DNA from: Jaminaea rosea
Taxonomy: Eukaryota > Basidiomycota > Exobasidiomycetes > Microstromatales
Assembly: GCF_003144245.1 (NCBI RefSeq)
Contig: NW_020289986.1
Location: 434,001 to 498,000 of the forward strand
Length of the DNA stretch: 64,000 nt
Direction: 5' to 3'
The notes under the pieces are model-generated. The model ran no database searches. It worked only from the letters and a program-made list of their open reading frames with translations, and was not told the DNA's origin. Made by a program: the position numbers and the translations under genes. Below are positions 12,524 through 17,055 of this stretch, piece after piece. Each line of letters begins with the position of its first letter. Within the stretch, counting starts at the first letter, position 1.

Positions 12524-14541
12524 ATGTGCGGCATCTTGGCCCTCCTGTTGTCATCTCAGTTGGCTGCGGCTGCGCCTGAGATCAACGAGGCTCTTTCCCT
12601 CCTCCAACACCGCGGCCAAGATGCAGCGGGCATCGTGACCTGTGGACCTGGTGGGCGATTCTACCAATGCAAGGCAAATGGAATGGTCCGAGATGTCTTC
12701 GATGCCAACAGTCTCGCCCGCCTGCGCGGCTCAATGGGCGTGGGTCACGTCCGCTACCCTACCGCTGGCTCGTCCAACCACGCAGAGGCTCAGCCCTTCT
12801 ACGTCAACTCGCCCTATGGTATCGTCTTCGCCCACAATGTGAGTGCGGTGGGCCCGGCCGAAGACACAGCGAGAGAAATTGTATGCTGACTGTGGGCCAC
12901 TTACGCTGCTCTCTCGTCAGGGCAATCTCATCAACACAACGGAGCTGCGAGCCTTCCTCGACGCAGAAGCTCACCGTCACATCAACACTGATTCGGACTC
13001 GGAGCTCCTCCTCAACATCTTTGCCAACAATCTGCAGGTGAGCCAGTGCGAAGGGGGTTTGCGGGATGCTATGGACTGGACTGAAGATTGACCGCCTTCT
13101 ATTCTCTCCTCCCCGCCAGGCGACCGGCAAATTCCGTATCAACGAAGAGGACATCTTCACGGCCATCCAAGGCCTCATGAAGCAGGCAAAGGGCGGCTAC
13201 ACCTGCGTGGCCATGCTCGCCGGCTTTGGCATCATTGCCTTCCGTGATCCCAATGGCATTCGTCCCCTCGGCTTGTGCTCGCGCAACTCGCCAGACGCAG
13301 GATCAGCCACTGCTAGCTCGTCGGGCACCTCAAGCCCTGCCGTCGGACACGGCAAGGACTACTGCTTCACCTCCGAATCCGTCGTTGGTGATGCGCTGGG
13401 CTTCGACGAATTCGAAGACGTCAAGCCTGGCGAGGCCATCATCATCACTCGTCACCAGGTCTCTCGCCGCGTGCTGGTAGACCAATCCGCCTACGAGTTC
13501 GCGCCAGACATCTTCGAGTACGTCTACTTCGCTCGCCCAGACTCTGTCATGGACGGTATTTCTGTCTACCGCAGCCGCATTGCCATGGGCGACCGCCTCG
13601 CCGTGACGGTTCGTAAGACGCTGCGCGCCCGCATGGAGACGATCGATGTCGTCATCCCCGTACCGGACACCTCGCGCGTTGCTGCGCTCCAAGTAGCCCA
13701 GTCACTCGGCGTACCATATCGCGAAGGCTTTGTCAAGAACCGCTACGTAGGCCGTACATTCATCATGCCCGGTCAGTCCGTACGAAGGAAGAACGTCCGT
13801 CGCAAGCTTAACGCTATGGCTATGGAGTTCAAAGGGCGCAACGTCCTCCTCGTTGACGACTCGATCGTTCGCGGTACCACTTCGCGAGAGATCATCCAGA
13901 TGGCGCGCGAAGCTGGAGCAAAGAAGGTCGTTATGGCCTCGTGTGCGCCGGCCATTCGCTACTCCAACGTCTACGGAATTGACATGCCCTCCCGACACGA
14001 GCTGGTAGCGCATGGCCGCACCGAAGAGGAGGTGGCTTCGCACATTCACGCCGACTTAGTCATTTACCAGACTCTCCCTGACTTGGTGGAGAGTGTGCAG
14101 GAGTGCATGACTACGGTGCAGATCAAGCGATTCGACACGGCAGTCTTCGATGGGGACTACGTGACCGGTGGAGTGGATGAGGCCTACCTCTCCAGCTTGG
14201 AGTCGCTGCGAAGCGACAATGCCAAGCTGAAGACGGCCGCTTCTAGGATCTCACAACCCGCGGGAGCTGCTCCTACAAGTGGGTCGGGCGGCACAGCGCT
14301 CGTTGTGGGGCCGCCAGGGGAGGGGGCGGGAGATGGGAAGATGGCTGCACCTCCCGCGATGCAGGCTAGCTATGTTGCCACGTCAGGGAGGGAGAATACC
14401 AATGGCAATGGGCTTATTTTGCCTGGTGGAGGTGAGAGGGGAGGCAAAGATGACGAGGAGGACGACGGAGCGCCTACTACATGCCAAGGGCCGATGAATG
14501 GCGCTGACGACTTGGCCCTTCACAATGGGTGGAGTCGATGA
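12524..14541 (+). CDS. ADE4: Amidophosphoribosyltransferase (first step of purine synthesis)
   Basis: Exons 12524-12838, 12921-13037 and 13120-14541 join to 617 residues. It transfers the glutamine amide to PRPP to make 5-phosphoribosylamine in the cytosol. MCGILALL puts the catalytic Cys at position 2, exposed after Met removal as in class II (Ntn) glutamine amidotransferases, so the start is certain. [14 protein letters not shown] and the spliced AHNGNLINT are glutaminase motifs; the last spans intron 1. The PRPP-binding loop [13 protein letters not shown] lies near residue 388. The last ~110 residues are a low-complexity Gly/Ala/Ser tail beyond the usual end of the family. MTD1, which supplies one-carbon units for the same pathway, follows on the same strand. 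Confidence 0.97.
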
Positions 14542-14940
14542 GAGCGGGCGTCGGAGAGCACAGAAGAAATTTCGTCGTATCGCGTCCGTAGATTCCTTGT
14601 TCTGGTCATTGGCAATATGAGCAACATCACGATGTCTGGCTATTGCGATGACCTCGCGAGTACGCCTCACGATGGCCACGGCCTTTGGTCGTCTTGGGCT
14701 CTCGAAGACCTGCCGGCGGCTGGGCTGCAACTTTTTTTGACGTCGATTGGACGGACGGAGAAAGACGAGGTCTCAAGGCCAAATTGAGCCAAGCCAATTC
14801 AAAGAACGCCGCCGCCGCCTGACGCCGCCTGTCATCCAGTCTGCTGACCTGCGTGCGACTCCAGTCCTATCCTGTCATCCTCACCATCGCTCTAATTCTT
14901 TGCTCGTCCCTCTCGATCGCTATACACGCGCTCTGTCAAT
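14542..14940. other. ADE4-MTD1 intergenic region
   Basis: It holds the ADE4 3' end and the MTD1 promoter. The last ATG on the plus strand is at 14672; from there to 15606 no ATG occurs in any frame. The minus strand shows no convincing gene. Confidence 0.5.
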
Positions 14941-15605
14941 CTGCCCAACCTGACTCGTCTTCAGAGAGCCGCCGTTGCTGCCGTTGCCGCCGCCTCGGCC
15001 TCTGCTCGCTACGTCCATCGACGACCACTCTCCTTCATCCCTAGCCTGCCAGCCAGCTCATCCTCATCCTCATCCTCATCCTCAACCCCTCGCCGACTCT
15101 TTGCTTCTGCCTCAGCTGGGCATCAACCCAACGACACCTCGCCTTCACCAGCGCCAGTCGACCTCGCCCACCTAAACGCCCTCCTCTCCTCGCTCACCCG
15201 GCCCTCGGACCTCGTTTCATCAAAGGCAGAAGACCCCAAAGCTCGTGCACAACGCAAGGCGAAGTTCAATCAACTGCTCGACGTCTTTCATTCAGCGACT
15301 GTCTGCACGCCTCACGAGCAAAAGGAGAGGTGAGTACGTGGCGAGGTAGCCACCACGAGGTTTACCGCCCTTGAATCGCGCCCATTAGCGTCTGGCCTGA
15401 ATTGAGACTGACTGACTGACTGACTGACTCCCACTCCCGTCCGCGCGCCTCAACTCTATTTTCTCCGTCACCTCTTCTTTGCCGCTCCTCATCGTCACTC
15501 AACTCTGGCAGCCTCGCCGAGCACTTTGCAGAGATCGATTACACAAGTAGCCAATACAAGTACCTCGACGCCCCCAACGTAGTTCTCCAAGGGATCGCAT
15601 CGAGC
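14941..15605 (+). other. In-frame, ATG-less N-terminal extension of MTD1, mitochondrial presequence-like
   Basis: The frame is open from 14896 and joins the MTD1 frame through a GT-AG intron (15330-15511; acceptor CTGGCAG). From the CTG at 14941 it would add 161 residues. The first ~60 are rich in Arg, Ala and Ser with no acidic residue (LTRLQRAAVAAVAAASASAR, then RRPLSF, then a run of Ser and RRLFASASAG), as in mitochondrial targeting peptides with a plausible cleavage point after RRLF. No ATG exists here in any frame. The CTG codons at 14941 and 14950 both have A at -3 and are candidate near-cognate starts. The remaining ~100 residues match nothing I know. The alternative is a distant ATG exon that I could not find, or a long 5' leader that is open by chance. 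Confidence 0.5.
15407..15430 (+). repeat. ACTG tetranucleotide microsatellite
   Basis: Five perfect ACTG units plus one variant unit (ACTC) lie inside the intron of the MTD1 leader region. Confidence 0.9.
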
Positions 15606-17055
15606 ATGACCGAGCCCGCCCTCAACACGTCTGCCTCGTCTTCAACGGCGCCGATCAGCGAGTCCAACCCGGGCAAGCTCGTATCAGCCGCTGCCCTGGC
15701 TAAGCCATTCATTGACTCGATCACGGAACAGATCACGCAGAGGGTTAAAGATGGCAAGTCTAGACCTCGCCTGGTGGGCATTTTGGCTACCCCTTCGCCG
15801 CCGAGTATCGCCTATGCCGAGTGGACTAAGAAGGCTTGCGAGAGCGTAGGCATGGAATTTGTGAGTGCGAGCGTGCGAGCGTGCCAAGGCTCTTCAAGGG
15901 TGCGACGCTGATCAAACGCTCTACTCTCCCCTCTGCTAGGACATCTGGAGGACATGGGACCAAGCGCCTGGTGAGGAGCCGCCAAGCGAGGACGACAAGA
16001 AGCCGTAAGTGCTTGACGACCCCACCGTGGTAGCCTGCACCCCAGCTCACTCGGCCATTTTTGCTTTCGCTCGCAGCGGACTCGAAGACGATGTCGAGGA
16101 CCTCATCATTGCAGCAAATGCGGATCCCTCCGTAGACGGCATCATGGTCTACTTCCCCGTCTTCGGCGGACGCCAGGACACGTACCTCTCGCAAATCATC
16201 AAGCCAAGCAAGGACGTCGAAGGTCTCTCCTTCTCCTTTGCCTGGAACCTTTACCACAATGTACGATGGATCGCTCCTAGCCAGCTCGGAGGAGCGCCGG
16301 GCAGTACGGCAGAGGGCAATGTGCTGAGCGAGGAGGAGAAGAAGGCGCTGAGCCAAAGTCAGCCTGCGAATGGTGGAGCGCACGACCACTCCCTCGGCAC
16401 CGATGACGTTGTTCCCTCGGGTATGGTCAAGGGCATCCTCCCCTGCACTCCGCTGGGTATCGTCAAGTGTCTGGAGGCGATGCAGGTGTACGATCGATCG
16501 CTGCCCTACGGTGACAGGTTGCGCGGCAAGACCATCACCGTCATCAACCGCTCCGAAGTCGTCGGCCGCCCGCTGGCTGCCCTCCTTGCGAATGACGGTG
16601 CACGCGTCTTCTCGGTAGACTTGGGGTCGACGCAAGAGTTCAGCAAGCGCGCCTACACGACGAGCTCGGAGGAGGACAAGGAGAACGAGGACGATCGCGA
16701 AGCCTCGCAAGCCGTCAAGGAAGCACGACGCCGAAATGCAGCACAGCGTCTTCGCCCGCACCACATCGTCCGTCCTCTCCCCTCCTCTAGCACCAGCCTT
16801 GAATCCTGCCTTGCCCAATCAGACGTGGTCATCTCTGGTGTCCCCTCAGCAAACTTCAAAGTGCCCACCTCGCAAATTCGTCAAGGCGCAACGTGCGTCA
16901 ACTTTTCTTCGGAGAAGAACTTCGAAAAGGACGTGAGGACCAAGGCGGGCATGTACTTGCCGAGCGTAGGGAAGATGACTTGCACCATGTTGCAGCGCAA
17001 CCTATTGAGGCTGGTTGAGGCTAAGGGAATGGTAGAGGATGGAAGTGGCAGATAG
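15606..17055 (+). CDS. MTD1: Methylenetetrahydrofolate dehydrogenase (NAD+), Mtd1 type
   Basis: Exons 15606-15860, 15940-16004 and 16077-17055 give 432 residues for the form starting at the first ATG (A at -3, strong context). Mtd1 oxidises 5,10-methylene-THF to methenyl-THF with NAD+ in the cytosol, supplying formyl units for purines. Matches to the yeast enzyme include VDGIMVYFPVFGG, NLYHNVR, ILPCTPLGIVK, INRSEVVGRPLAALLANDGA and DVVISGVPSANFK. The N-terminus GKLVSAAALAKPF aligns with the start of yeast Mtd1, so this ATG makes a complete enzyme. An insert of ~45 residues follows NLYHNVRW and another of ~35 precedes the second half; both are low complexity. The upstream exon can extend the same frame (see the 14941 entry), so a longer, mitochondrial form is possible. 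Confidence 0.95.

Follow-up and report, generated by a model that had tools for sequence, protein, structure and literature searches.

A putative mitochondrial form of Mtd1 from a non-AUG start in Jaminaea rosea

One gene, two destinations: known systems and a candidate

In yeast, ALA1 and GRS1 make the mitochondrial forms of their products from non-AUG codons. Yeast Mtd1 is cytosolic. It is said to be an NAD-dependent dehydrogenase, a description with which its name in the Protein Data Bank (PDB) agrees and from which the wording of one published account differs. Mammalian MTHFD2 is encoded by a separate gene and is bifunctional, and is not known to have an extension of the sort that concerns us here.

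The differing account credits MTD1 in vitro with 'only cyclohydrolase function', places the origin of the MIS1/ADE3 duplication in the Saccharomycetales and describes MTHFD2 as a mitochondrial dehydrogenase/cyclohydrolase (PMC11064299); the long form of Mtd1 proposed below would likewise put a methylene-tetrahydrofolate (THF) dehydrogenase in mitochondria. Closer to our subject is Ustilago maydis Pgd1, where, by the account in PMC7214817, AGG AUU at -63 to -58 starts a peroxisomal form, at about 2%. Cryptococcus LeuRS and ArgRS are reported to be dual-localised from the near-cognate starts ACG and AUU, respectively (PMC7049704), and conserved near-cognate starts are reported for fungal cpc-1 (PMC5487733). 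Our literature searches covered MTD1 and basidiomycete mitochondria, non-AUG dual targeting, alternative starts in folate genes, and Jaminaea rosea itself; among the titles and abstract beginnings of the matches listed, none concerned a non-AUG or dual-localised fungal Mtd1.

The gene we describe is MTD1 of the yeast-like fungus J. rosea, which with Parajaminaea and Sympodiomycopsis belongs to the Microstromatales (Ustilaginomycotina). It resembles U. maydis Pgd1 in being a single gene, from the same subphylum, with a candidate targeting signal in an AUG-less in-frame leader that is conserved in relatives (PMC7214817). The signals themselves differ. That of Pgd1 is a nine-residue peroxisomal PTS2 proven with reporters (PMC7214817), whereas the putative signal of MTD1 is of mitochondrial type and belongs to an extension of some 160 residues that also includes a conserved segment and is interrupted by an intron. 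With the Cryptococcus and yeast synthetases MTD1 shares the arrangement, in its case proposed, of a mitochondrial presequence from a near-cognate codon and a cytosolic form from the next AUG; in those genes, as may be the case here, weak AUG and near-cognate codon change places between species. Unlike them, it encodes no synthetase and has a long conserved part beyond the presequence. The best account we can give is that MTD1 works like the known near-cognate dual-localised (DualNCC) genes, of which it would be a putative member.

The MTD1 locus

The window, the whole stretch of J. rosea DNA that we analysed, is 64,000 nucleotides (nt) long, and positions below are counted within it. MTD1 lies on its plus strand, downstream of a gene that we take from its sequence to encode an amidophosphoribosyltransferase (ADE4-like; 12524-14541, plus strand, with ATG at 12524 by our reading, stop at 14539-14541 and intron donors GTGAG at 12839 and 13038). 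The two genes stand in tandem at 12524-17055, and both are presumably tied to purine synthesis. The annotated short form of Mtd1, presumably cytosolic, begins at ATG 15606-15608. From there the coding region runs to 17055, with introns at 15861-15939 and 16005-16076, and yields a protein of 432 residues with both THF dehydrogenase Pfam domains above cut-off. Its best solved relative is yeast Mtd1 (PDB 1edz/1ee9, E 2.7e-78), a protein of the same enzyme family with 320 residues and without the extension.

A preliminary description of this locus, made from the DNA sequence, had a frame open from 14896 across a GT-AG intron into MTD1, and that is what we find. An in-frame TAA at 14893-14895 closes the frame upstream. 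Exon A, open and Met-free, occupies 14896-15329 and is followed by an intron (GTGAGT...CAG) at 15330-15511; splicing joins QKE to SLAEHF and carries the frame on to ATG 15606. The open frame has 176 codons, and the extension, counted from CTG 14941, has 161 residues.

The public J. rosea protein (P0001, the best database match) starts at ATG 15606 and is identical to the window protein from that ATG, except for 14 missing residues (16321-16362, VLSEEEKKALSQSQ). These 42 nt were apparently called as an intron in error; P0002-P0006 keep a similar stretch. To judge from the alignments described below, the public model also omits an extension that is conserved in relatives.

Several short elements lie in and around the leader. 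ATTGG at 14746 and CCAAT at 14794 (together 14746-14798) may be promoter boxes; CCAAT boxes were dropped as a promoter yardstick, there being no clear peak before the start codons of 53 open reading frames (ORFs). TGACTC, which we take to be a Gcn4/Bas1-type site, is found at 14951 and again at 15425. Inside the leader intron, 15406-15429 is a (GACT)6 tandem repeat.

An extension conserved as protein

Our first protein search, in which the 7991 candidates with the most words in common were scored, returned 511, of which the best 120 were examined. Among the ten nearest matches (P0001-P0010), the extension is present in five (P0002-P0006), while P0007 and P0008 begin inside it and P0001, P0009 and P0010 begin at the internal Met encoded by ATG 15606. 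It is also carried by P0011-P0024 and P0026, in part only by P0014; the names of these models include Ustilago, Sporisorium, Pseudozyma and Thecaphora, and we take the class to be Ustilaginomycetes. P0025, P0027, P0029, P0030 and other models begin at the internal Met, a point against our reading, and the extension segment was not found in the models examined from Malassezia, Tilletia, Tilletiaria and Ceraceosorus (partial).

Twenty sequences were aligned with MAFFT: the window, P0002-P0006, P0011-P0013, P0015-P0024 and P0026, leaving out P0007, P0008, P0014 and P0055. Identity over the alignment is 74% to P0002, 71% to P0003 and 70% to P0004. Residues of LN.LL..L..P, E....R..RK..F..L.D.FH..T.C and P...L.G.A.SM.EP are invariant over all 20; over 10 sequences, 23 residues upstream of the internal Met are invariant. 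The exon junction is matched by P0002 (QKESLAEHF) and P0003 (QKETLADHF). Across Microstromatales and Ustilaginomycetes, then, the extension is kept at the protein level in the MTD1 frame. Though measured blind to codons, this in-frame conservation shows that a protein in that frame is under selection, and on the alignment the extension is real protein. An LP motif (NLPNL, VLPGL, KLPSI or TLPTL), seen by eye as a conserved start, was treated as weak and not counted because MAFFT failed to reproduce the eye alignment.

These results bear on the view that J. rosea makes the short form only, the open extension being a relic or a plain leader. Such a view would suit a public model that begins at 15606 and a genome in which long ATG-free leaders exist. 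Yet the invariant residues, the exon junction and the 176-codon open frame have all been kept, and we regard it as very improbable.

A candidate presequence

The candidate presequence spans 14941-15102 and ends R-L-F/A-S, an R-3-type motif, with the cut after 15102. If CUG is decoded as Met, the N-terminus from CTG 14941 reads MPNLTRLQRAAVAAVAAASASARYVHRR.... Its first 30 residues have a net charge of +5 and a moment of 0.39, compared with -1 and 0.15 for the short form. The preliminary description had called this N-terminus acid-free and Arg/Ala/Ser-rich; it is free of acidic residues for 79 residues, 10 of them Arg. Acid-free 79-codon windows with at least nine Arg/Lys number 166 among 11647 open windows, which overlap one another. 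It had also pointed to RRLFASASAG as a plausible cleavage region, and RLF/AS does match what we take to be the R-3-type cleavage pattern. A motif picked after viewing, R-x-(F/L)-x-(S/T), lies 18-35 residues before the conserved LN in six of six sequences (the window and P0002-P0006) and at most 40 residues from LN in one of 14 Ustilaginomycetes-like rows (P0026). Acid-free, Arg-rich and amphipathic, the N-terminus is plausibly a presequence, with import putative.

The conserved helical segment

Between presequence and enzyme, about 100 residues had at first been left unexplained. They turn out to be the best conserved part of the extension, clade-specific and mostly helical. The segment (VDLAHLN...PNVVLQGIASS) is encoded at 15157-15605 and interrupted by the intron. 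AlphaFold2, run on P0002 with 41 sequences, gave a disordered N-terminus, predicted helices of moderate confidence at residues 39-57, 62-73, 85-106 and 110-126 (pLDDT 58-71 over residues 41-120) and an enzyme of mostly high confidence. The window piece modelled alone gave two confident helices, with pTM 0.25.

Pfam yielded no match on the extension, and a PDB profile search with it gave nothing below E 0.2. A profile search for stand-alone homologues, over the best 7995 candidates (proteins of about 87-278 residues), found none, its only match being P0121, a 143-residue piece containing an MTD1 domain. When P0002 residues 38-150 were used in a region search, 511 candidates yielded P0002-P0006 and nothing else; this search is insensitive, since it missed the extensions of the Ustilaginomycetes. 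Within the limited reach of the Pfam, PDB, profile and region searches, no homologue of the extension was found outside MTD1. Our guess is that the segment might serve partner binding or oligomerisation in a mitochondrial form.

Where the long form begins

The extension, with its targeting-type signal, has no in-frame AUG in J. rosea. A scan for the nine near-cognate codons in frame over 14896-15130 gave ACG 14926, CTG 14941, CTG 14950, ATC 15037 and CTG 15046. The candidate starts are the CTG at 14941-14943 (gtcaatCTGccc, +4 = C) and, second, that at 14950-14952 (cccaacCTGact, +4 = A). Both have A at -3, as does ATG 15606, in agreement with the preliminary description, so each is a near-cognate codon that has a purine at -3 and lies 5' of the signal. 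An upstream exon supplying an ATG by splicing would argue against a start of this kind, and we looked for one. All six introns that we placed have a GTRAG donor (three in MTD1, two in the ADE4-like gene and one in the SHMT gene); among the 22 GTs of 14541-14980 there is none, and hence no spliced ATG exon with a consensus donor in that interval. Because there is no in-frame ATG and no GTRAG donor upstream, CTG 14941 or 14950 is the likeliest candidate for the start of the long form.

The models of three near relatives (P0002, P0003 and P0005) have an upstream Met close by, and so do Ustilaginomycetes models, which counts against our reading. P0004 and P0006 reach a Met far upstream only, and in five of the ten nearest models no Met precedes the segment. 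This would fit an AUG missing from several Microstromatales, with the proviso that gene callers differ. In eight of the 14 Ustilaginomycetes-like rows a C-S-C-S-R motif is preceded, at a distance of 4 or 11 residues, by a Met, so the ancestral start may have been an AUG; and since Ustilaginomycetes models open the extension with Met, initiation at a non-AUG codon would be local rather than the rule.

Could an upstream exon supply the long form with a conventional ATG after all? The simplest spliced model takes ATG 14648 (M-T-S-R) and joins 14659, with donor GTACGC, to 14965. Of such in-frame models, 33 have a donor scoring 2 or more; several of them have basic N-termini (from ATG 14525, 14538, 14617 or 14648), and the acceptor at 14964 (CTGACTCGTCTTCAG) looks good. 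In the Microstroma model P0005, of JGI type, NLPSIRP is preceded by MAQSI, possibly the product of a small upstream exon. However, the donors reach scores of 2-3 of 6, whereas those of the three MTD1 introns reach 4-6, and GTRAG is absent from the interval. ATG 14525 and 14538 lie in or on the stop of the ADE4-like gene, and 14648 is just 107 nt past that stop. Nor could the P0005 arrangement be copied, as J. rosea has no AG right before NLPNL. We consider an upstream exon unlikely.

The ATG-free stretch

From 14676 to 15605 there is no ATG in any of the three plus-strand frames, exactly as first reported. The last ATGs 5' of the gap are at 14525, 14538, 14617, 14632, 14648 and 14672, and the next is at 15606. 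At 933 nt, the gap between the flanking ATGs, 14672 and 15606, is the longest on the plus strand of the window (mean 64); the longest on the minus strand is shorter, at 705 nt. None of 2000 dinucleotide shuffles was ATG-free, the mean count being 6.7 ATGs.

In a larger sample of 264 kb, made up of the 64-kb window and 200 kb of contig C1 and read on both strands, the gap ranks third of 7883, behind gaps of 1297 and 993 nt. Both longer gaps lie within the same 100 kb (G000 C1:1500001-1600000). The 1297-nt one (minus strand, L022-L031) is a leader that precedes a 609-residue Ser-rich ORF; ahead of that ORF's ATG only 34 in-frame codons are open, so that it has little in-frame extension. Among 53 long ORFs, one has its nearest upstream ATG at least 900 nt away. 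These longer gaps, of which one precedes an ORF that has hardly any extension, count against a dual-start reading of MTD1. Because the genome holds longer ATG-free stretches, absence of ATG alone is weak evidence, and we dropped the gap as proof by itself; the desert is suggestive without deciding the matter. The original proposal that ATG is avoided, sparing scanning ribosomes, draws weak support from the coding part: synonymous resampling of the 483 coding nt from CTG 14941 gave a mean of 2.6 ATGs and P(0) = 0.039. No ATG-free window was seen among 150 coding windows of 483 nt.

The internal Met and the case for two forms

The Met of ATG 15606 is kept in 20 of 20 aligned sequences. In the same alignment Met accounts for none of 424 L/I/V/M residues in the conserved segment versus 136 of 1843 in the enzyme, a difference whose residue-count p (3e-13) is not to be taken at face value because the sequences are related. 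Counted by variable columns, Met occurs in 0 of 96 in the segment versus 14 of 197 in the enzyme (p = 0.006); the test weakens to p = 0.20 if the first M of P0007, P0008 and P0014, partial models that start with M inside the extension, is a true ATG.

The internal Met sits inside a conserved protein block, GIASSMTEP, as it would if it were an ordinary residue of a protein made in the long form alone. Against this, the Mtd1 models that we examined from Malassezia, Tilletia and other fungi start near the internal Met without the segment, and ATG 15606, with its strong context, is the first ATG past 14672. A long form alone is, to our minds, improbable.

Two forms could also come from two transcript starts: the mitochondrial form from a long mRNA, the cytosolic form from a shorter mRNA that begins in the extension or its intron. 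Some dual-localised Cryptococcus enzymes are reported to add alternative transcript starts (PMC7049704). The TGACTC sites at 14951 and 15425 could be read in the same sense; they mean little, since TGACTC occurs 34 times in the window over both strands. We hold two transcripts to be somewhat unlikely as an explanation, and one that overlaps with our own, because the long form may still begin at a non-AUG codon.

Our preferred reading, which we think is probably right, is that one gene yields a dual-localised Mtd1 (methylene-THF dehydrogenase), the mitochondrial form being initiated at a near-cognate codon. Some scanning ribosomes would take such a codon as their start, with CTG 14941 (or 14950) the most likely, and so produce a long form of about 593 residues, in which a cleavable mitochondrial presequence is followed by a clade-specific, mostly helical segment of about 90 residues and the enzyme comes last. 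Ribosomes passing the CTGs would, by leaky scanning, meet no ATG before 15606 and make the short cytosolic enzyme. The two forms put forward in the preliminary description have thus gained a conserved extension, a plausible presequence and a conserved internal Met; that a CTG is used is something we infer.

Other genes of the same genome

Yeast ALA1 uses ACG where J. rosea AlaRS has AUG. The J. rosea gene (L011, minus strand) has a weak-AUG presequence before a second AUG. This is not a near-cognate start, and it counts against the CTG reading of MTD1. J. rosea therefore does use weak AUGs for such presequences.

Searches of J. rosea found one SHMT gene (L037, minus strand) and one C1-THF synthase gene (L010, about 2113-2300), numbers to be read as at least one each. 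In both, an ATG1 in weak context (T or C at -3) opens a basic presequence, of 55 and 62 residues, with no other ATG inside, and is followed by an ATG2 with A at -3; AlaRS shares this layout. Both enzymes are likely to be dual-localised by start choice, and with the PGD1 leader described next they lend support to our reading of MTD1. A search with the formyltransferase family PF00551 matched at three loci.

PGD1 lies just outside the window (G000 C12, about 430-431 kb). Its leader has 70 open in-frame codons and no ATG, and encodes a PTS2-like RLTSIAKHL (L034, minus strand, 2190-2216), and tandem near-cognates, AAG CTG, stand 60 and 57 nt upstream of its ATG. From the likeness of this leader to the proven U. 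maydis case, we infer that non-AUG dual targeting would operate in J. rosea.

What a dual-start Mtd1 would mean

Taken together, these genes allow a wider proposal, which we make tentatively. In this lineage the folate one-carbon route (SHMT, C1-THF synthase and Mtd1) may run in cytosol and mitochondria alike through the choice of start codon in single-copy genes, rather than through duplicated genes. In Mtd1 the upstream AUG would have been swapped for CUG, with a new, Met-free helical segment letting scanning ribosomes reach the cytosolic start.

If our reading of MTD1 is true, a core folate enzyme would join the fungal proteins that non-AUG initiation directs to two compartments, and a public gene model would be corrected by about 160 residues that relatives conserve. 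It would also suggest that, in these fungi, mitochondrial one-carbon metabolism is run from single-copy, dual-start genes.
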